A DNA stretch of 64,000 nucleotides, taken from the NCBI RefSeq assembly GCF_002837135.1, contig NZ_NWBQ01000053.1:1-64000 (forward strand), written 5' to 3'. The notes beneath the pieces were generated by a model. That model was given only the letters and a program-made list of their open reading frames with translations, did no database searches and was not told the DNA's origin. The position numbers and the translations under genes were made by a program. This document shows, piece by piece, positions 18,564 through 60,343 of the stretch. The stretch is from Macromonas bipunctata. Its GTDB lineage: Bacteria > Pseudomonadota > Gammaproteobacteria > Burkholderiales > Burkholderiaceae_C. Every line of letters begins with the position of its first letter. The first letter of the stretch is position 1.

Positions 18564-19076
18564 TTATTGCACGATGAAGCTGGAGAACAGCACCGCCTGC
18601 ACGGGGTTCTTGCGCCCTTCATTGAGCGGGAAGTTGGCCTGCTCGCGCACCAGGTCCAGAATTTCCTGCGCCAGCTGCTCCTTGCCTTCGCTGCTCATGA
18701 GCTCCTCGGCGGTGTGGCGCGACACCAGCAGCAGGATGCCGTTGCGGATGGTGGGCATGACCACCTTGACCGCCTCGGCGGTGGCGGTGTCGAGCAGCTG
18801 CAGGCTGATGCCGATCTGGGCAAAGCGGGTGTTTTCCTGGTCGGCCAGGTTCACGACCACGCTTTCCAGCGGCATGTACTCGGGCTTGGCGCCTTTCTTG
18901 CTGCTGGCTTCGGCGGCGTGCTCGTCGCCTTCCTCGCCTTCGCCGCCGCCCTTGAGCATGAAGAAGGCGCCGGCACCCCCCAGCACCGCCACCACGGCCA
19001 CGATGATGACGATCAACATCATCTTGCTTTTGGGTTTTTCGGCGGTTGCTGCGTCGTCTTTGGGTTTTGCGGCCAT
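18564..19076 (-). CDS. fliL: Flagellar basal body protein FliL
   Basis: A 170-residue stator-associated protein. One transmembrane segment (about residues 17-38, KMMLIVIIVAVVAVLGGAGA) follows a basic N-terminus, then an acidic linker and the periplasmic FliL domain (YMPLESVVVNLADQENTRFA). It is first of the fliL-M-N-O-P-Q-R unit, separated from fliK by 187 bp, so a separate promoter is likely, though I could not assign one with confidence. Confidence 0.95.
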   Translation of the reverse strand: MAAKPKDDAATAEKPKSKMMLIVIIVAVVAVLGGAGAFFMLKGGGEGEEGDEHAAEASSKKGAKPEYMPLESVVVNLADQENTRFAQIGISLQLLDTATAEAVKVVMPTIRNGILLLVSRHTAEELMSSEGKEQLAQEILDLVREQANFPLNEGRKNPVQAVLFSSFIVQ

Positions 19077-19263: not shown

Positions 19264-22200
19264 TCAGGCGTAGAGGTCGATGCCACCGGGGCGGGCCGGG
19301 GTGCGCGGTGCCGGGCGGGGTGCGGGGGCGTCGTCGCCCTGGCCGCTGCCGCCGGTGCGCTGGCGTGCGCCGTCCTGTTGCGCCTGGGTGGCCTGGGGCT
19401 GCTGGGACGGCGGGCGCTCCGGCGTGTTGCCTTGGCCTGCGGTCTGCGCGCCGATCGACCAGCTGGCCAGCTCCAGCCCGTGCGATTCGAGCAGCGGGCG
19501 CAGCGCGGTTTCGGCGTTTTGCCGCAGGGCCTCGCGCGTGGCGCTGTTGTCGGTTTGGAAGTCGAGTTGGGCCTTGCCGTCGCGCAGCGTCACTTCAATG
19601 CGCAGCGCCTGCGCCTGGCCGTCCTGCAGGTTGAGGCTGGCGCGCTGGATGTTGTTGGCGCTCCAGTAGGCCACCTGGGTGTCCAGGGCCTCGAAGGCGT
19701 CGTTGAGGGCCTGGCCCAGGCTGCGGGCCTGCCCGTCGTTGCTGGGGCTGGGGCTGACGCTGGGCGCAGGGGTGTCTGCGGTGATGGGGGTGGCCGTGGT
19801 GGACGCGAGTGCCGCGCTGGCGGCGGCGTCGGGCAGCGGCGCAGCTGGGAGTGGCTCAGGCGTCGTGTTGCGCAGCAGGGTGTCGGGGTTGATCAGGCCA
19901 TCTGGAGTGCGCTCGCGCGGATCGCGCTGCTGCTGGCCGGAGGGGTTGGCGTTGTCCTGTTGCGCCGATGTCTGACCCGCAGCGGCTGGCACGGCCACGG
20001 CGGGAGCCTCGCCCGGCGGGGTCAGTGCTGCGGGTGTGGTGCGGGTGGGTTGCTGGTTGCGTTCCTGCCAGGCTTGCGACACGGTGGTGGCGGTGCTGGC
20101 CGCCACGCCGCTGCGTTGTGGGGGTGGCAGGTTGGACAGCACGCTGGCCGGAATCGCCATCGGCGGCAGGTTCAACGCCGTTGCGGCGCTGGCCACAGTG
20201 CCGGACGGCTGGCGGCGCTGCTGTGCCAGCGCCACGGTGCTGGTGTCGCGCCCCGCCGCTGCCGCATCAACCGGTGCCCATGCGTTCAGCACCGCAGGTT
20301 GCGGCCTCGGGCTGGTGTCGGCAATCATGCTGGCATTTGCATTTGCATTTGCATTTGCGTTGGTGCTGGTACTGGTGCTGGTGTTCTGCTGAATGGGTGC
20401 TGTCGCGGTGTTTGTGCTGATGTTATTTTCAATATTTGCGTGGATATCCGGGCGGGCGATCTCAGCAAGGGGCATCGCACCCTGCGGTGGGGCGAGTGAT
20501 GCCGTGGTGGGCTCGGCAACAGGTGTTGCGTTGGGCAGTGTTGTGGCTGCGACTGATACGGCTGCGGTGGTGACTGCCCCGGGGGCTGTGGCTGGCGTGC
20601 TCTCGGTTGTGGTCGCAGGCTTGACCTGCATTACCGTTGCCGTTGCTGCTGTGGCTGCACCTGTGACCGGGGTTGCGGCTGGACTTGTGTTGGCATTCAA
20701 GCTGCTGGGCCGCGCTTCCTGGAGCGCGGCGTTGCTGGTCTGATTGGCTGTGGCGGCATTTTGTGTACCCAGCGCTTGGCCGGGCGCTGGCAGGGGGGCT
20801 GTGCGCGCACCGCTGCCAGACGCCTCGCTGCGGGCCGAGGTGGTGGGTGGCGCCGCCGCTTCCAGCGAGCGCAGCGCGGGTTGTGCTGCGGCACTGCGTA
20901 CCGCTGTTGGTGCTGCTGGTGCATCAGCCCCCGCGGGTGCGGGGGTATTGCGCAAAGGCGCGGTGGCCGCAGGTGCCACTGTGGCCGCAGCCGCAGCGGC
21001 TGCCGTGATGATGTTGTCTGCGTTGGGCAGCTGTTCTGCAGCCGTTGGCAGCACTGAGTTTGTGGCACCGATGGGAGTCACAGCCACAGGCGCTGAAGTG
21101 TTGGCCGTTGCTGCACGCATCGGTGCCGGATTTATTACAGCTGTTGGCGTTGTACGTGCAGGTGCAGGTGCAGGTGCAGGTGCAGGTGCAGGTGCAGGTG
21201 CAGGTGCAGGTGCAGGTGCGGTGACGTCTGTGGCAGCGGCATCGTTTGCGGGTGCTGCGCTGGGTTGAGCGTCTGCTTGCCGAACGGGGGCTAGGCGAGT
21301 TTCTGGAAGCCCAGTGACTGTTGTTGCCGCCGGTGCGTCAGCCCCTGCAGGTGCGGGAGCATTGCGCAAAGGCGCGGTGGCCGCGGGTGCCACTGGGGCC
21401 GCAGCTGCAGTGGTTGCCGTGATGGTGTTGTCTGCGCTGGGCAGCTGTTCTGCAGCCGTTGGCAGCGCTGAGTTTGTGGCACCGATGGGAGTCACAGCCA
21501 CAGGCGCTGAAGTGTTGGCCGTTGCTGCACGCATCGATGCCGGATTTATTGCAGCTGTTGGCGTTGTACGTGCAGGTGCAGGTGCAGTGACGTCTGTGGC
21601 AGCGGCATCGTTTGCGGGTGTCGCGCTCGGTTGAGCGTCTGTTTGCCGGACGGGGGCTAGGCGAGTTTCTGGAAGTCCAGTGACTGTTGTTGCCGCCGGT
21701 GCGTCAGCCCCTGCAGGTGCGGGAGCATTGCGCAAAGGCGCGGTGGCCGCGGGTGCCACTGTGGCCGTAGCCGCAGCGGCTGCCGTGATGGTGTTGTCTG
21801 CTCTGGGCGGTTGTTCTGCAGCGGTTGGCAGTGCGGAGGTTGTGCCACCAATAGGTGTCGCTGCTACAGGCGTTGGAGTGTTGGCCGGTGCCGCGGTAGT
21901 GTTGTCTATGCGGGTTGATTGTTCTGCAGCTGTTGGCCGTGCGGAGGGGGTGCCGCTGTGGGGTGCTGCAGTTACAGGCGCTGGAGTGTTGGCTGCTGCT
22001 GCACGCGTCGGTGCCAGATTGGTCGCAGTTGTTGGCGTTGTATGTGCAGCTGCAGTTGCAGTGACGTCTGTGGCAGCGGCATCGTTTGCGGGTGTCGCGC
22101 TGGGTTGAGTGGTTGTTTGCCGGACGGGGGCTAGGCGAGTTTCTGGAAGTCGAGTGGCTGTTGTTGCCGCCGGTGCGTCAGCAGCTTCCTCAGTGGTGAG

Positions 22201-24189
22201 AGTCTCACGGAAAGGTGGGGCAGCCGCGAGTGCCATGGGGGCTGCAGTCGCAGTCGCAGTCGCTGATGCTGTAGCGGTGTTGTCTGCGCTGGTTGGCTGT
22301 TCTGCTGCTGTTGGCAGTGTAGCGGTTGGCGGTACAGGATTTTTGCCGCTGACGGGCGTTGCGGTCACAGGCGCGGGGATGTTGTCAGCCGCCACACGCA
22401 TTGGCGCTGGATTTGTCGCGGCTGTTGAGGGCGCACTTGCCGGTGTGGCGGCGTCTGTAGCTTCGTTTGCGGATGTCGTCGTGGGCTGGGCGTCGGTTTG
22501 CGGAGCTGTGGTTGTCGGGGGCTGTTGTGTCCCGATGGGTACGGGCACCGATGGGTTGATCTCCAAGGCAGCAGCTGTGGCCGCTGGCGTGGTGCTGGCC
22601 GCGGTAGTGGTATCGGTGGTAGCAGTAGCAGTAGCAGTAGCAGCAGACACCAACGCAGAGGCGGGCGTATGAGTGCGCAACGGCGCCGTGGTGGTTGCCG
22701 CAGGAGGTTGCTGTGCTGCAGCCGCAGCCGTGGCCGGATCGGCTGGGGCGCTGGTGATGGGTGTGACGATGGGCGGAGCCATGCCATTGGCCGTGGCCGC
22801 AATCGGTTCGTCCAGCACGGCGGCCTGGCGTGCGCGTGGGCGCGTGGGCGCTGTGCTGGCCGTGGTGGTGTCCGGCGCCGCGCGGTCGGCGGTGGTGGCT
22901 TCGGCGGGGAGCGACACGGCGTTGGCCAACGGGATGCTGTGGCGGGACGGCGTCAGGCGCTGCGTCTGGCTGCGTTGCGCCACGTCCAGGGTGCTGTTGC
23001 CCGCCGGTGGTGGCGTGGGGGCGCCGGATCGCTGGGTGGATGTTGCCGTTGGCGTCGGTGTAGGCTCCCGTGTCGGTAAGGCAGCTCCTGCGGTTTGCGA
23101 AGTGTTGGGTGCCCTGCTGGTGGCGGGCCATGCCGTGCCGTCTGGCGCTGGTTCCGATGCCGATGCTTGTTCCGATATTGATACTGGTGCTGATACTGGT
23201 GCTGGTGCTGGTGCTGGTGCTACCACTGCGTTGGATGTCGCCAGTGGTGGAGAAGGGGATGTGGTTGCCGCGGCTTCAGGGGCGGCGTCTGCCATGGCGG
23301 GCAGTTCCAGCTGGACCGCTGGCACTGGTGGCGGCGATTGGGCGTCCGGGGAGGCGGTCTGGTCTGTGATCCGAGAGGGCAGTGGTGCTTGAATTGGGGT
23401 CTGAGTCTGAGTCTGAGTCAGAACAGGTTGTGGCGCAAGCTGTGGTTGCGCCTGCGCCTGGAGCGGCGGCTGGGGCGCAGCAGCCAATGCCGGTGTGGCC
23501 AATGCCATCACCGGTTCGGCACGGCTGGCGATGCCCTGTTCGGATTGGGCTGGTGCGGCTGTGGTTGTAGCTGTTGCTGTAGCCTGCACGGTGGTGGAGG
23601 CGGTGGCCGCAAGCCCAACGGTGGTGGCCACCGATGTGCCAGTGGGTGCCAAGGGGGCAGCGACTGTAACGGGCGGTTCCACCGGTGTGGGCGAGGACGG
23701 ACGGGCAGCGGCCATGCCGGTGGGCGTATAGGGGCGCTGCTGCGCTGCTTCAACAGGCGCTGCCACTGTGGTGGGTTCCCACCCGTCTGGTTCGACGTTT
23801 ACCCCGGTGCGTGCTGCTGTGCTTGGGCTAGCCGGTGTTGCAAACGGCAGCGCAGCCTTGACGGGCTCCGGTCTGGCGAATGAGGAGGTGGTAGGCCCGG
23901 CACTGCTGGCCGGGTCTGGGCTGATCGGTGCTGGAGAGGGTTGTGACGGTTGCGCTGCCGCCATCGGCATGGGGCTGGTGGCGTTTGCAGCAGCGGTCGC
24001 AGTGGTCGCGCTGGCGGTACTGGCGGTGGCTGCTGCTGCGGCGCTGTCCTGGGTCTGGGCCAGCACGTTGGCGAACAGGGGCAGTGTGGTGGCGTCGGTG
24101 TGATCGGGCTGGCCGCTGGGGCTGCGGGCCGGGGCGGGGGCCGCTGCCAGCAGGCTGAAGGTCAGGGCGCTGAGGTCGCTGGGGGTCAT
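19264..24189 (-). CDS. fliK: Flagellar hook-length control protein FliK, very large and repeat-rich
   Basis: FliK sets hook length by acting as a secreted ruler and then switches export specificity at FlhB. This one has 1641 residues, about four times Salmonella FliK (405). The C-terminal Flg_hook domain is recognisable at about residues 1490-1580 (ALRIEVTLRDGKAQLDFQ, ETALRPLLESHGLELASWSI). The remaining 1400 or so residues are Ala/Thr/Pro-rich with four tandem units of about 122 residues and runs of alternating dipeptides (AP, NA, TQ). The frame is intact throughout, so it is not a pseudogene. Its start overlaps the fliJ stop by 4 bp. The name rests on position and the C-terminal domain. Confidence 0.93.
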   Translation of the reverse strand: MTPSDLSALTFSLLAAAPAPARSPSGQPDHTDATTLPLFANVLAQTQDSAAAAATASTASATTATAAANATSPMPMAAAQPSQPSPAPISPDPASSAGPTTSSFARPEPVKAALPFATPASPSTAARTGVNVEPDGWEPTTVAAPVEAAQQRPYTPTGMAAARPSSPTPVEPPVTVAAPLAPTGTSVATTVGLAATASTTVQATATATTTAAPAQSEQGIASRAEPVMALATPALAAAPQPPLQAQAQPQLAPQPVLTQTQTQTPIQAPLPSRITDQTASPDAQSPPPVPAVQLELPAMADAAPEAAATTSPSPPLATSNAVVAPAPAPAPVSAPVSISEQASASEPAPDGTAWPATSRAPNTSQTAGAALPTREPTPTPTATSTQRSGAPTPPPAGNSTLDVAQRSQTQRLTPSRHSIPLANAVSLPAEATTADRAAPDTTTASTAPTRPRARQAAVLDEPIAATANGMAPPIVTPITSAPADPATAAAAAQQPPAATTTAPLRTHTPASALVSAATATATATTDTTTAASTTPAATAAALEINPSVPVPIGTQQPPTTTAPQTDAQPTTTSANEATDAATPASAPSTAATNPAPMRVAADNIPAPVTATPVSGKNPVPPTATLPTAAEQPTSADNTATASATATATAAPMALAAAPPFRETLTTEEAADAPAATTATRLPETRLAPVRQTTTQPSATPANDAAATDVTATAAAHTTPTTATNLAPTRAAAANTPAPVTAAPHSGTPSARPTAAEQSTRIDNTTAAPANTPTPVAATPIGGTTSALPTAAEQPPRADNTITAAAAATATVAPAATAPLRNAPAPAGADAPAATTVTGLPETRLAPVRQTDAQPSATPANDAAATDVTAPAPARTTPTAAINPASMRAATANTSAPVAVTPIGATNSALPTAAEQLPSADNTITATTAAAAPVAPAATAPLRNAPAPAGADAPAATTVTGLPETRLAPVRQADAQPSAAPANDAAATDVTAPAPAPAPAPAPAPAPAPAPARTTPTAVINPAPMRAATANTSAPVAVTPIGATNSVLPTAAEQLPNADNIITAAAAAAATVAPAATAPLRNTPAPAGADAPAAPTAVRSAAAQPALRSLEAAAPPTTSARSEASGSGARTAPLPAPGQALGTQNAATANQTSNAALQEARPSSLNANTSPAATPVTGAATAATATVMQVKPATTTESTPATAPGAVTTAAVSVAATTLPNATPVAEPTTASLAPPQGAMPLAEIARPDIHANIENNISTNTATAPIQQNTSTSTSTNANANANANASMIADTSPRPQPAVLNAWAPVDAAAAGRDTSTVALAQQRRQPSGTVASAATALNLPPMAIPASVLSNLPPPQRSGVAASTATTVSQAWQERNQQPTRTTPAALTPPGEAPAVAVPAAAGQTSAQQDNANPSGQQQRDPRERTPDGLINPDTLLRNTTPEPLPAAPLPDAAASAALASTTATPITADTPAPSVSPSPSNDGQARSLGQALNDAFEALDTQVAYWSANNIQRASLNLQDGQAQALRIEVTLRDGKAQLDFQTDNSATREALRQNAETALRPLLESHGLELASWSIGAQTAGQGNTPERPPSQQPQATQAQQDGARQRTGGSGQGDDAPAPRPAPRTPARPGGIDLYA
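20333..20356 (-). repeat. Hexanucleotide repeat (GCATTT)4 in fliK
   Basis: Four perfect copies of GCATTT on the plus strand, encoding alternating Asn-Ala in FliK. The period is a multiple of three, so copy-number change keeps the frame. Confidence 0.9.
20910..22500 (-). repeat. Tandem repeat block in fliK, four units of about 366 bp
   Basis: The landmark GGGGGCTAGGCGAG occurs at 21286, 21652 and 22126; the landmark TTGCGCAAAGG occurs at 20948, 21362 and 21728. Spacings are 366, 414 (366+48) and 474 (366+108). The 48-bp excess equals eight extra hexamers in one unit; the 108-bp excess is an internal partial duplication in another. The unit at 22126-22500 is more diverged. Each unit encodes about 122 residues. 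Confidence 0.9.
21161..21220 (-). repeat. Hexanucleotide repeat (GGTGCA)9-GGTGCG in fliK
   Basis: Ten consecutive hexamers encoding a Pro-Ala run. The equivalent site in the next tandem unit (21575-21586) has only two, so this array has expanded or the others have contracted since duplication. Confidence 0.92.
23197..23220 (-). repeat. Hexanucleotide repeat (TGGTGC)4 in fliK
   Basis: Four perfect copies, encoding alternating Ala-Pro. Similar short arrays lie at 22621-22638 (AGCAGT)3 and 23401-23418 (CTGAGT)3, all with a six-base period. Confidence 0.85.
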
Positions 24190-24650
24190 GGCTGGGGATC
24201 CTCGGGGCGGGGGCGGTGTTGCCGGTGCAGGTTGGCCGCCATTTCGTCGTTGCTTTTCTGTTCCTGGCGCTGCAGCTGCTTTTGCCAGGCTTCTTCGCGG
24301 CGTTCGTCGTATTTTTTCAGGGCGGCCAGGTCGCGTTCGGCTTGCTGTACCTGTTGCTGGCAGCGTTGCACCTGTTTTTGGGTGCGTTCCAGCACGCCGT
24401 CCTGGAAGCCGATGGCGTGGTCGAGTTTGGCCATGAACTGCTGCTGGGCGTGCAGCAGCATGGGGCTCACGCCTTCGCGTGCGCGCGCCTGCCAGCGGTC
24501 GAGCGACTCTTGCGTGTAGCCACGCAGCTGGGCCATCTGCTGTTCGGCCTGGGCGTGTTCGCGCTGCGCCTGCACCAAGGCCTGCAGCGCGTCGTCGCGC
24601 CGCATGGTCGAGACTTCGAGCACGGTGGCCAGGCTGGCGGGCTTTTTCAT
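24186..24650 (-). CDS. fliJ: Flagellar export chaperone FliJ
   Basis: A 154-residue coiled-coil stalk protein of the flagellar export ATPase. Most of the length is charged heptads (EHAQAEQQMAQLRGYTQESL, VQRCQQQVQQAERDLAALKK). Its ATG directly follows the fliI TAA stop with no gap, and its end overlaps fliK by 4 bp. Confidence 0.93.
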   Translation of the reverse strand: MKKPASLATVLEVSTMRRDDALQALVQAQREHAQAEQQMAQLRGYTQESLDRWQARAREGVSPMLLHAQQQFMAKLDHAIGFQDGVLERTQKQVQRCQQQVQQAERDLAALKKYDERREEAWQKQLQRQEQKSNDEMAANLHRQHRPRPEDPQP

Positions 24651-30822: not shown

Positions 30823-32067
30823 TTAGCGGTAGACCGGGAAGCGGGCGGTCAAGGCGTTGACCTTGGCGCGCACCGCCTCGATGTTGGCCGGGTCGCGCGG
30901 GTTGTCCAGCACGTCGGCAATCAGGTTGGCGGTCAGGCGGGCTTCCTCGTCCTTGAAGCCACGGGTGGTCATGGCCGGGGTGCCGATGCGGATACCGCTG
31001 GTCACGAACGGTTTTTCCGGGTCGTTCGGAATGGCGTTCTTGTTGATGGTCATGTGGGCAGCACCCAGCACGGCCTCGGCTTCCTTGCCGGTGATGCCCT
31101 TGGAGCGCAGATCGACCAGCATCACGTGGCTCTCGGTACGGCCCGACACGATGCGCAGGCCGCGTGCGGTCAGCGTTTCGGCGATGATCTGGGCGTTCTT
31201 GACCACTTGTTGCTGGTAGTCCTTGAACTCGGGGGTCAGGGCTTCTTTGAAGGCCACGGCCTTGGCGGCGATGACGTGCATCAACGGGCCGCCTTGCAGG
31301 CCGGGGAAGATGGCGCTGTTGATGGCCTTTTCGTGCTCGGCCTTCATCAGAATGATGCCGCCACGCGGGCCGCGCAGGCTCTTGTGGGTGGTGGAGGTCA
31401 CCACGTCGGCAAACGGCACCGGGTTGGGGTACACGCCAGCGGCAATCAGGCCAGCGTAGTGGGCCATGTCCACCATAAAGATGGCACCCACCTCTTTGGC
31501 GATCTTGGCAAAACGCTCAAAATCAATGCGCAGGGCGTAGGCGGAGGCACCGGCCACGATCAGCTTGGGGCGGTGCTCGCGCGCCTTGGCTTCCATCGCG
31601 TCGTAGTCGATCTCTTCCTTGTCGTTCAAGCCATAGGATACGACGTTGAACCACTTGCCCGACATGTTCAGCGGCATGCCGTGGGTCAGGTGGCCGCCTT
31701 CGGCCAGGCTCATGCCCATGATGGTGTCGCCGGGCTTGAGGAAGGCCAAGAACACGGCCTCGTTGGCCGAGGCGCCACAGTGCGGCTGCACGTTGGCGGC
31801 GTCGGCGCCAAACAGTTGCTTGACGCGGTCGATGGCCAGTTGCTCGGCCACGTCCACGAACTCGCAGCCACCGTAGTAGCGCTTGCCCGGGTAGCCTTCG
31901 GCGTACTTGTTGGTGAGCTGGCTGCCCTGGGCGGCCATCACGGCGGGCGAGGCGTAGTTCTCGCTGGCAATCAGCTCGATGTGGTGTTCCTGGCGGGCGT
32001 TTTCGGCCTGGATGGCAGCGAACAGTTCGGGGTCGGTTTGTTCAACCAGAATTTGGCGGTCGTACAT
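30823..32067 (-). CDS. glyA: Serine hydroxymethyltransferase
   Basis: Converts serine and tetrahydrofolate to glycine and methylene-tetrahydrofolate, the main one-carbon entry point. The 414-residue protein has the PLP lysine in [15 protein letters not shown], and the family blocks [10 protein letters not shown] and [13 protein letters not shown]. The ATG at 32067 ([10 protein letters not shown]) is the family start. The 248-bp upstream gap has no riboswitch I could recognise. Confidence 0.98.
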
Positions 32068-32315
32068 GGCAGTCCTTGAAGAAAGAAATGGTGCTCTGCT
32101 TAACAGGTCTGGCAGAGTCTGCCCAGGCGAACGGCTGAGATCCCACGCTGGCGGGGGCGATGCGCTTCCTTGTGGTGGTCCACGTCGGCTGTGGTGGAAA
32201 AACGGTTCAATGCTGCTGTTGTTCCACGGCCTATCGCCAGTCACGCACCTTGTGTGGATTCTAGCGCAGGCCCCACGGCGCGGGGTGGCTTGGGGTTGTG
32301 GCCCCGCAGGGCACT

Positions 32316-58241: not shown

Positions 58242-59594
58242 ATGTCCATGCCCGTTACCGCCCCCCTGCCCACCACCTTGCCCGATTGGCTTGTCCATTG
58301 CGAGCGCCTGCACCCCAACACCATCGAGATGGGCTTGGAGCGCGTGCGTACGGTGGCGCAGCGCGTGGACAGTGGGCGCGGCATCCGGCCCGGTTGTCCG
58401 GTGATTGTGGTGGCGGGCACCAATGGCAAGGGTTCCACTTGCACGATGCTGGAGGCGATCTACGGCCAAGCGGGTTACCGCACGGGCGTATACACCTCGC
58501 CGCACTTGGTGCATTTTGAGGAACGGTGCCGCATCCAAGGCCAGTCCGCCGAGGCGCAGCAACTGGTGGCCGCGTTTGCCGAGATCGAGCGCGCCCGTGT
58601 GGGCGATGGCACCCCCGCCCAGCCTGAGGTGGCCCTGACCTATTTTGAATTCACCACGCTGGCCATTGTGTTGGCCATGCAGCACGCACGGCTGGATGTC
58701 ATGATCTTGGAAGTGGGGCTGGGCGGGCGTTTGGACGCGGTCAATGTGTTCGATGCCGATTGTGCCGTCATTACCAGCATCGACATCGACCACGTGGAAT
58801 ACCTGGGCCCCGACCGCGAGACGATAGGCCACGAGAAGGCCGGCATCATGCGCACCGGCCGTCCGGTGGTGGTCAGCGACCCGGTGCCGCCGCAAAGCGT
58901 GCTCGATCACGCCTTTGAGATCGGCGCCGACCTCTGGCGTGCCGGGCGCGACTTCCACTGCGGTGGCGACAAGCAGCAATGGAACTGGGCCGGACGCAGC
59001 CGCCGCTACCCCGGCCTGGCGTACCCGGCTTTGCGCGGAGCCAACCAACTTGTCAACGCCGCTGGCGTGCTGGCGGTGGTGGAGGCGTTGCACCCCACGT
59101 TGCCCGTCACGGCGCAGGCGGTGCGCAACGGGCTGGCGCTGGTGGAGCTGCCGGGGCGCTTCCAGATCGTGCCCGGCCAGCCCGCGCTGGTGTTGGATGT
59201 GGCGCACAACCCGCATTCCGCCGCCGCGCTGGCCGAAAATTTGGATGCGATGGGCTTCTACCCCACCACCCACGCTGTGTTTGGTGCGATGGCCGACAAA
59301 GACCTGCGCCCGATGTTCGAGCGCCTCAATCCCTTGATCGACCGCTGGTACTTCACCGACTTGCCCACCGAGCGCGCCGCTTCCGCCGCCGACTTGCAAA
59401 CCTTGTGGCACAGCCTTAACACCCGCACCGATGTGCAGGCCAGCCAACACCCCAATCCTGACGCGGCCTTGCAGGCGGCGGTGGCGCAGGCCGACCCCGC
59501 TGATAGAATCGTGGTCTTTGGTTCTTTCTTTACCGTAGGCGGCGTGTTGCAAAATGGAGTGCCTCGGCTGGCGGCCCCGCACCTCCAAGCCTGA
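58242..59594 (+). CDS. folC: Bifunctional folylpolyglutamate synthase/dihydrofolate synthase
   Basis: Adds glutamate to dihydropteroate and to folates. The 450-residue protein has the P-loop VAGTNGKGSTCTMLEAI, the TSPHLVHFEER loop, and the Mur-ligase-like C-terminal domain with LDVAHNPHSAAALAENL. Its stop overlaps the next gene by one base (TGATG), forming the folC-SPOR-cvpA-purF operon known in E. coli as folC-dedD-cvpA-purF. Confidence 0.97.
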   Translation: MSMPVTAPLPTTLPDWLVHCERLHPNTIEMGLERVRTVAQRVDSGRGIRPGCPVIVVAGTNGKGSTCTMLEAIYGQAGYRTGVYTSPHLVHFEERCRIQGQSAEAQQLVAAFAEIERARVGDGTPAQPEVALTYFEFTTLAIVLAMQHARLDVMILEVGLGGRLDAVNVFDADCAVITSIDIDHVEYLGPDRETIGHEKAGIMRTGRPVVVSDPVPPQSVLDHAFEIGADLWRAGRDFHCGGDKQQWNWAGRSRRYPGLAYPALRGANQLVNAAGVLAVVEALHPTLPVTAQAVRNGLALVELPGRFQIVPGQPALVLDVAHNPHSAAALAENLDAMGFYPTTHAVFGAMADKDLRPMFERLNPLIDRWYFTDLPTERAASAADLQTLWHSLNTRTDVQASQHPNPDAALQAAVAQADPADRIVVFGSFFTVGGVLQNGVPRLAAPHLQA

Positions 59595-60343
59595 TGCCAT
59601 CTGATTTTCGAGCTCCTGTGCTGCGCGGCCACCAGCGAATGTTCAAACTCCGTTCCGGTGCCTCGGGCACCCCGCATCCGGCCTCACTCAACAGCGTGGA
59701 CGCGCTGCGCCGTCGGTCGCACCACAGGCTCATGGGTGCGTGCGTGCTGGTGCTCGCGGGCATGCTGGGCTTTCCCATGCTATTTGAAGCCGATCCCCGC
59801 CCCCTGCCGGTGGACATCCCGATTGACATCCCCGCCAAGGGCACCACCCCGCCGTGGACGCCGGTCGGCCAGGCCGCTGCCCCCGCCGACAGCCTGGGCG
59901 ACAAGGAAGAAATCGTGGCCGCTGCCCCTGCACCGCGCCAGCAGACCAACCCCGACGCCAACGCCGCGCGCGAGGCGAAAGAAAAAGCCGTCCGCGAGGC
60001 CAAGGACAAGGTCGCGCGCGAAGCGAGGGAAAAAGCCGCCCGCGAGGCGCGCGATAAGGTTGCGCGCGAACAGGCTGCCAAGGACAAGGCCGCACAGGAC
60101 GCCGAGCCGCCGGTGCGCCTCATCGTGCAAATTGGCGCCTACGCCGACCACGCCAGTGCGCAGGAAGTGCGCTGGAAGCTCGAGCGCGCTGGCCTCAAGA
60201 CCTACACCCACATCGCCCAGACGCCCGATGGCGAGCGCATCCGGGTGCGCCTGGGCCCGTTTGCCAGCCGCGCCGAGGCCGAAAAAGCCGCCACCAAGGC
60301 CAAGGCACTGGGCCTGACCAACAGCGTCCTGCTCACGCTGTGA
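59594..60343 (+). CDS. SPOR domain cell-envelope protein (DedD-like)
   Basis: A 249-residue protein: a short cytoplasmic segment, one transmembrane helix (about residues 38-56, MGACVLVLAGMLGFPMLF), a charged helical linker rich in REAKEKA-type repeats (about 115-165), and a C-terminal SPOR domain (VRLIVQIGAYADHASAQEV, LGPFASRAEAEKAATKA). SPOR domains bind glycan strands at the division septum. It overlaps folC and cvpA. Confidence 0.92.
   Translation: MPSDFRAPVLRGHQRMFKLRSGASGTPHPASLNSVDALRRRSHHRLMGACVLVLAGMLGFPMLFEADPRPLPVDIPIDIPAKGTTPPWTPVGQAAAPADSLGDKEEIVAAAPAPRQQTNPDANAAREAKEKAVREAKDKVAREAREKAAREARDKVAREQAAKDKAAQDAEPPVRLIVQIGAYADHASAQEVRWKLERAGLKTYTHIAQTPDGERIRVRLGPFASRAEAEKAATKAKALGLTNSVLLTL

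Follow-up and report, generated by a model that had tools for sequence, protein, structure and literature searches.

The closest described counterpart of the locus considered here is the FliK of Salmonella, a protein of 405 residues in which an N-terminal export and ruler part (residues 1-207) is followed by a flexible linker (208-267) and a C-terminal switch domain (268-405) (PMC6972891). Engineered forms range from 310 to 785 residues, and those of 363 to 785 residues gave hooks of 42 to 135 nm, which corresponds to 0.2 nm per added residue, in a calibration that used helical inserts and had its upper end at 785 residues (PMC6126814). Salmonella FliKs of more than 520 residues, with hooks longer than 75 nm, were associated with poorer swimming (PMC6126814). 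Without FliK, Salmonella forms uncontrolled polyhooks of 363 +/- 201 nm; each residue of a fully extended chain covers 0.37 nm, and the length of the rod is 35 nm (PMC6972891). The injectisome needle rulers YscP and PscP share the switch-domain fold (5cuk) and the ruler logic, but they belong to a needle system, whereas the gene described here lies in a flagellar operon.

In Macromonas bipunctata, a window of 64,000 nts (positions 1 to 64,000 of contig NZ_NWBQ01000053.1) carries on its minus strand the genes fliF, G, H, I, J, K, L, M, N, O, P, Q and R, with fliE on the plus strand. Several of these names rest on operon position together with sequence or size, and are thus presumptive. The fliK reading frame (19264..24189, minus strand) encodes 1641 residues without an internal stop. 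Within the fliF-G-H-I-J-K-L-M operon, its ATG start overlaps the stop codon of fliJ (24186..24650, minus strand) and fliL (18564..19076, minus strand) lies directly downstream, both neighbours being named by operon position and by the similar genes that adjoin fliK in relatives. PF02120 (Flg_hook) is the only Pfam family in the protein (43.1 bits, with the cut-off at 29.8), and the 1641-residue frame is its only match in the whole genome (2.70 Mb, 99.86% complete), which rules out a second FliK elsewhere. Hence the sequence-only reading, which had called this stretch a FliK of 1641 residues with an intact frame, was correct on both counts. In a collection of named genomes that may leave out records of the window's own genome, the fliI genes closest to this one belong to Macromonas nakdongensis, Tepidimonas ignava and a Hydrogenophaga MAG; the best segment of each is 73% identical, and the Macromonas match extends over the longest stretch. 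Elsewhere in the window, a ZMP/ZTP riboswitch match (32114-32254, minus strand; 45.4 bits against 39) lies just upstream of an ORF (30823-32067) that we take to be glyA-like, and a 24/48-base tandem repeat occurs at 59963-60070 in another ORF (59594-60343).

The plan of the protein is that of Salmonella FliK, with the difference that it is a natural protein, rich in alanine, threonine and proline and built of repeats, and that about 1504 residues precede the switch domain, versus 267 in Salmonella. The Flg_hook (switch) domain occupies residues 1505-1587 (19429..19677, minus strand). A model of the C-terminal 168 residues, made with 60 relatives, has block means of 83-96 for model residues 21-110 and is thus confident over the domain. 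At E<=0.001 it matches only two folds in the PDB, 2rrl from the C-terminal part of FliK and 5cuk from the substrate-switch domain of PscP, with a low TM-score of 0.40 (rmsd 13.7) to the former and a TM-score of 0.67, by target length, to the latter; by sequence only, the match to 2rrl is weak (E 0.014). The predicted fold is therefore like that of Salmonella FliKC and PscP, and together with the Pfam match it bears out the earlier claim of a conserved ruler-end domain. The tail that follows (residues 1588-1641; 19267..19428, minus strand) ends in GIDLYA, comparable in an alignment to GLDVYA and GLSVYA in relatives. At the other end, the first 50 residues (24040..24189, minus strand) contain a hydrophobic LFANVLAQ stretch that aligns with an F-x-x-L-L-like stretch of related FliKs and is a putative export signal.

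The length of this FliK was compared with others by means of an HMM of the FliK domain, built from 30 loci including the window's own. The search returned 153 ORFs, of which 125, the window's included, were kept because FliJ lay directly upstream and anchored the start (28 were dropped); collapsing identical proteins left 111 other distinct FliKs. These have a median of 444 residues, a mean of 463 (SD 90) and a maximum of 915, in a sample that is not random: ten loci were chosen for long open frames, ten for closeness, and many more came from similarity-ranked searches. With 1641 residues, the Macromonas protein is by far the longest, outside the 340-915 residues spanned by the survey, although length is no condition of FliK membership. 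An estimate of about four times the usual size had been made from the sequence; it holds, at 3.7 times the survey median and 4.05 times Salmonella FliK (405 residues; PMC6972891). Four other apparent giants of 1140, 902, 890 and 888 residues shrink to 420, 715, 395 and 746 once anchored behind fliJ, the first being a frame of genome G034. Of 299 genomes of the family 232 have a Flg_hook match, as do 320 of 398 genomes of the phylum, and among the strongest matches, which are those listed from these searches, no other open frame exceeds 1140 residues; since this comparison covers the matches listed, the claim is that of the longest FliK among those seen.

Among the nearest relatives by C-terminus is genome G136, which looks the same as M. 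nakdongensis and shares the C-terminal domain and the end motif; M. nakdongensis also has the fliJ-fliK order found here. The contig of M. nakdongensis (end of locus L032) stops inside fliK, and the same-looking G136 contig (start of L153) begins there. Counted by eye from these two contig ends, their FliK is of ordinary length, about 530 residues. The G136 protein has short repeats of its own, SWHMATPGQPGSAL-like and by eye different from those described below, and G136 has a single flgE where M. bipunctata has a tandem pair.

The difference in length lies in the linker (residues 51-1500; 19690..24039, minus strand), whose blocks consist of 71-76% A/P/T/S/Q/N with 0-0.9% aromatics. Low complexity had been proposed for the N-terminal 1400 residues or so, and block composition puts it at about 1450. 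A tandem repeat array covers residues ~590-1125 (20815..22422, minus strand), with PTAAEQ five times, LPETRLAPVRQ three times and NDAAATDVTA three times. The most recent duplication has a period of 366 nts, or 122 residues (20904..21894, minus strand), and its copies share 84.8% identity across 625 columns, interrupted by a single gap of 48 nts. Seven hexanucleotide runs of at least three copies were found in the linker, one of them of ten GCACCT, and a hexanucleotide tract at 21156..21223 (minus strand) encodes an (Ala-Pro)n run. Judging from these patterns, the linker is lengthened via tandem duplication, the 122-residue unit among others, and via six-base slippage, to which the hexanucleotide tracts and an excess of residue identity at lag 2 (z 5.1) point. 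The repeat unit was also considered as a mobile or shared element, but at E<=1e-5 it has no further match within this genome among the 40 of 100 first-look candidates that were scored. As for variation between strains, a genus search of the genome collection returned only the window's own genome.

The repeat copies have kept the reading frame, and five overlapping and hence non-independent comparisons between them gave dN/dS values of 0.42, 0.43, 0.73, 0.48 and 0.31. Second codon positions vary least in all five. For four of them, a test of whether the three positions change equally gave p values of 0.016, 0.00016, 0.044 and 0.002. In one comparison first positions changed slightly more than third positions (34 versus 32), and in three of them 1-7 codons are locally out of register near alignment gaps. 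Because the copies are in frame, change least at second positions and have dN/dS values of 0.31-0.73, the repeat region looks translated and under constraint.

The hook protein itself is encoded twice. The flg operon, located on another contig of this genome (locus L167, outside the window), comprises flgB, D, E1, E2, F, G, H, I, J and K, with flgC not separately listed; these names are presumptive, being given by similarity or by sequence. The two hook genes are full-length and in tandem, flgE1 encoding 569 residues (L167:6080-7789) and flgE2 551 residues (L167:7808-9463), and each is preceded by GAGAGGAAAC, which resembles a ribosome site. Their cores are near-identical, both in the first 145 codons (dS 0.26, dN 0.014) and in the last 145 codons (dS 0.27, dN 0.003), and their middles are divergent (dS 2.1, dN 0.37). 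Since the identity of the middles is 0.56 within the pair and at most 0.44 with the seven other FlgEs compared, the two genes most likely go back to a duplication in this lineage, after which gene conversion or strong selection would have held the cores together.

FlgE1 has matches at E<=1e-40 in 275 of 399 family genomes, and among the matches listed only the window's genome has two of full length; at most three candidates were scored per genome, so such pairs may be commoner than this listing suggests. Paired matches elsewhere, where checked by eye, are the N- and C-halves of one gene. All 13 relatives fetched have a single flgE between flgD and flgF, encoding 400-539 residues; one of them, G056, has three FlgE matches in the family search, and its fetched contig end holds one flgE. 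A general pairing of long FliKs with doubled flgE was rejected, as no tandem pair occurs among the matches in ten long-FliK genomes (not strictly the ten longest), nor in G052, which has the 715-residue FliK; the coincidence of the two therefore rests on one genome. Massilia sp. TS11 (G787, locus L106) has two widely separated flgE genes (C1:136506-138059 and C1:657292-658833), which suggests two flagellar systems, and G789 has a third, weak and partial flgE match on another contig. Judging by titles, abstract starts and term counts, nothing was found in the literature on a tandem flgE pair.

The reading that we favour, to which we give an even chance, is that of a working FliK whose ruler was lengthened in this lineage and whose hook would consequently be very long. 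The ruler part would have grown through successive tandem duplications that kept the frame and through slippage in steps of six bases, with no loss of the ends that serve export and the switch at FlhB. Most likely the protein acts like other FliKs: its molecules would be exported singly up the growing hook and, while the chain threads through, the switch domain would go past FlhB too quickly to act; once the hook is long enough, the switch domain would pause at FlhB and hook export would end. The roughly 1240 ruler residues beyond Salmonella FliK would thus give a much later stop, with a hook near 300 nm, for which the second tandem flgE may supply extra or mixed subunits. The calculated length is 55 + 0.2 x (1641 - 405) = 302 nm, extrapolated far past the tested 363-785 residues, and the upper bound for a fully stretched chain is 1504 x 0.37 - 35 = ~520 nm, also an extrapolation. 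In favour of a working ruler, FlgD has 222 residues, within the 217-233 of 13 relatives, and FlhB has an NPTH sequence, which we also count in its favour. Against a long hook, the calibration inserts were helical, whereas the linker here is rich in proline and has no helix in the model, and the poorer swimming of Salmonella with FliKs above 520 residues points the same way. The sequence shows the gene, the repeats and the constraint on them, the predicted fold of the switch domain and the pair of flgE genes; that the protein is expressed and secreted, the length of its hook and a connection of the long ruler with the doubled hook gene are inferred. The sequence-only reading had expected such a length to change the size of the hook, which is plausible and follows from the published Salmonella results; the tandem second hook gene and the growth of the linker by constrained in-frame repeats, which it had not foreseen, both bear on this expectation. 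No report of an unusually long flagellar hook, an unusually long FliK or an alanine/proline-rich repeat FliK was found in the literature.

It is also possible, at clearly less than an even chance, that most of the extra residues are not counted, because the linker is cleaved or fills the export channel as a slack or collapsed chain. The hook would then be ordinary, and the protein would have changed in size by drift, through slippage within a spacer that tolerates it. The 637 linker residues that were modelled (554-1190), from a single sequence with no alignment, are predicted to be fully disordered, with a mean pLDDT of 32.6. Since no helix is predicted, the model speaks against a compact domain in this part that would escape counting, and shows no sign of one, but it is compatible with random-coil slack. 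With a low-complexity filter on and at E<=1e-3, no segment of residues 1-1480 has a match in the 111 other FliKs, and the linker sequence therefore appears to drift freely between genera; the traces of slippage are also as expected of a tolerant spacer. However, the export channel is about 2 nm wide and leaves little space for slack, and the repeat copies are constrained rather than freely drifting. In Salmonella, moreover, insertions into the ruler were counted linearly (PMC6126814).

An unlikely alternative is that measurement has been lost and FliK switches export without measuring, giving long, variable, polyhook-like hooks with filaments that are tolerated or decaying. The predicted 300 nm is close to the uncontrolled polyhook length, hence so long a ruler may add little control. 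Supporting this alternative, GC3 falls from 0.90 in the protein's own C-terminal part to 0.60 in the linker, as weakened selection could give; this drop of 0.30 is the largest among 112 FliKs (next 0.15; mean of the others 0.03, SD 0.05). GCA and ACA make up 26-43% of the Ala and Thr codons in residues 1-1140, versus 6% and 2% in fliF/G/I/M. However, GC3 is similarly low in flgE1, flgE2 and flgG of this genome (0.63-0.67, versus ~0.89-0.93 in several upstream genes), so a low GC3 is common to hook and rod genes and does not simply indicate relaxed selection on FliK. In general, linker GC3 does not decrease as FliK becomes longer, with a rho of -0.06 (p 0.57) across the other 111 proteins. The repeats stay in frame with dN/dS below 1, and the other flagellar genes inspected (the flg operon, FlhA, FlhB, MotA/B-like genes, two flagellin-like genes and one flgL-like match) are intact. 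A false expansion of the repeats during assembly is very improbable, for although the gene carries repeats and the M. nakdongensis contig ends within fliK, the copies differ by ~10% to 36%, no part of the frame is broken, and 19 kb of the 65-kb contig separate the gene from the contig end; moreover, the parts on either side of the array (residues 1-585 and 1130-1500) would already make a long protein.

If the working long ruler is accepted, a natural super-long hook of about 300 nm or more would be set by the longest FliK of the survey, and its subunits would be two co-expressed hook proteins that share the polymerising core and differ in their outer domains, ruler segments and hook gene having both been duplicated in one lineage; this fuller picture is advanced tentatively and is rather doubtful as a whole. 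In the work on ruler models considered here, engineered proteins of up to 785 residues were tested (PMC6126814). A natural, disordered, Pro-rich ruler of twice that size would test per-residue against per-helix counting, and would probe the limit of the ruler mechanism and the evolution of hook length. With the hook gene doubled, a hook of mixed subunits can be tested for directly, and the copy number of the repeats could let slippage adjust hook length quickly. Cells of M. mobilis are 12-30 µm long with a polar flagellum of 20-40 µm, and those of M. bipunctata 8-12 µm with a polar flagellum of 10-15 µm (PMC8191957). Our guess is that a long hook would suit the large, slow, polar flagellum of Macromonas.
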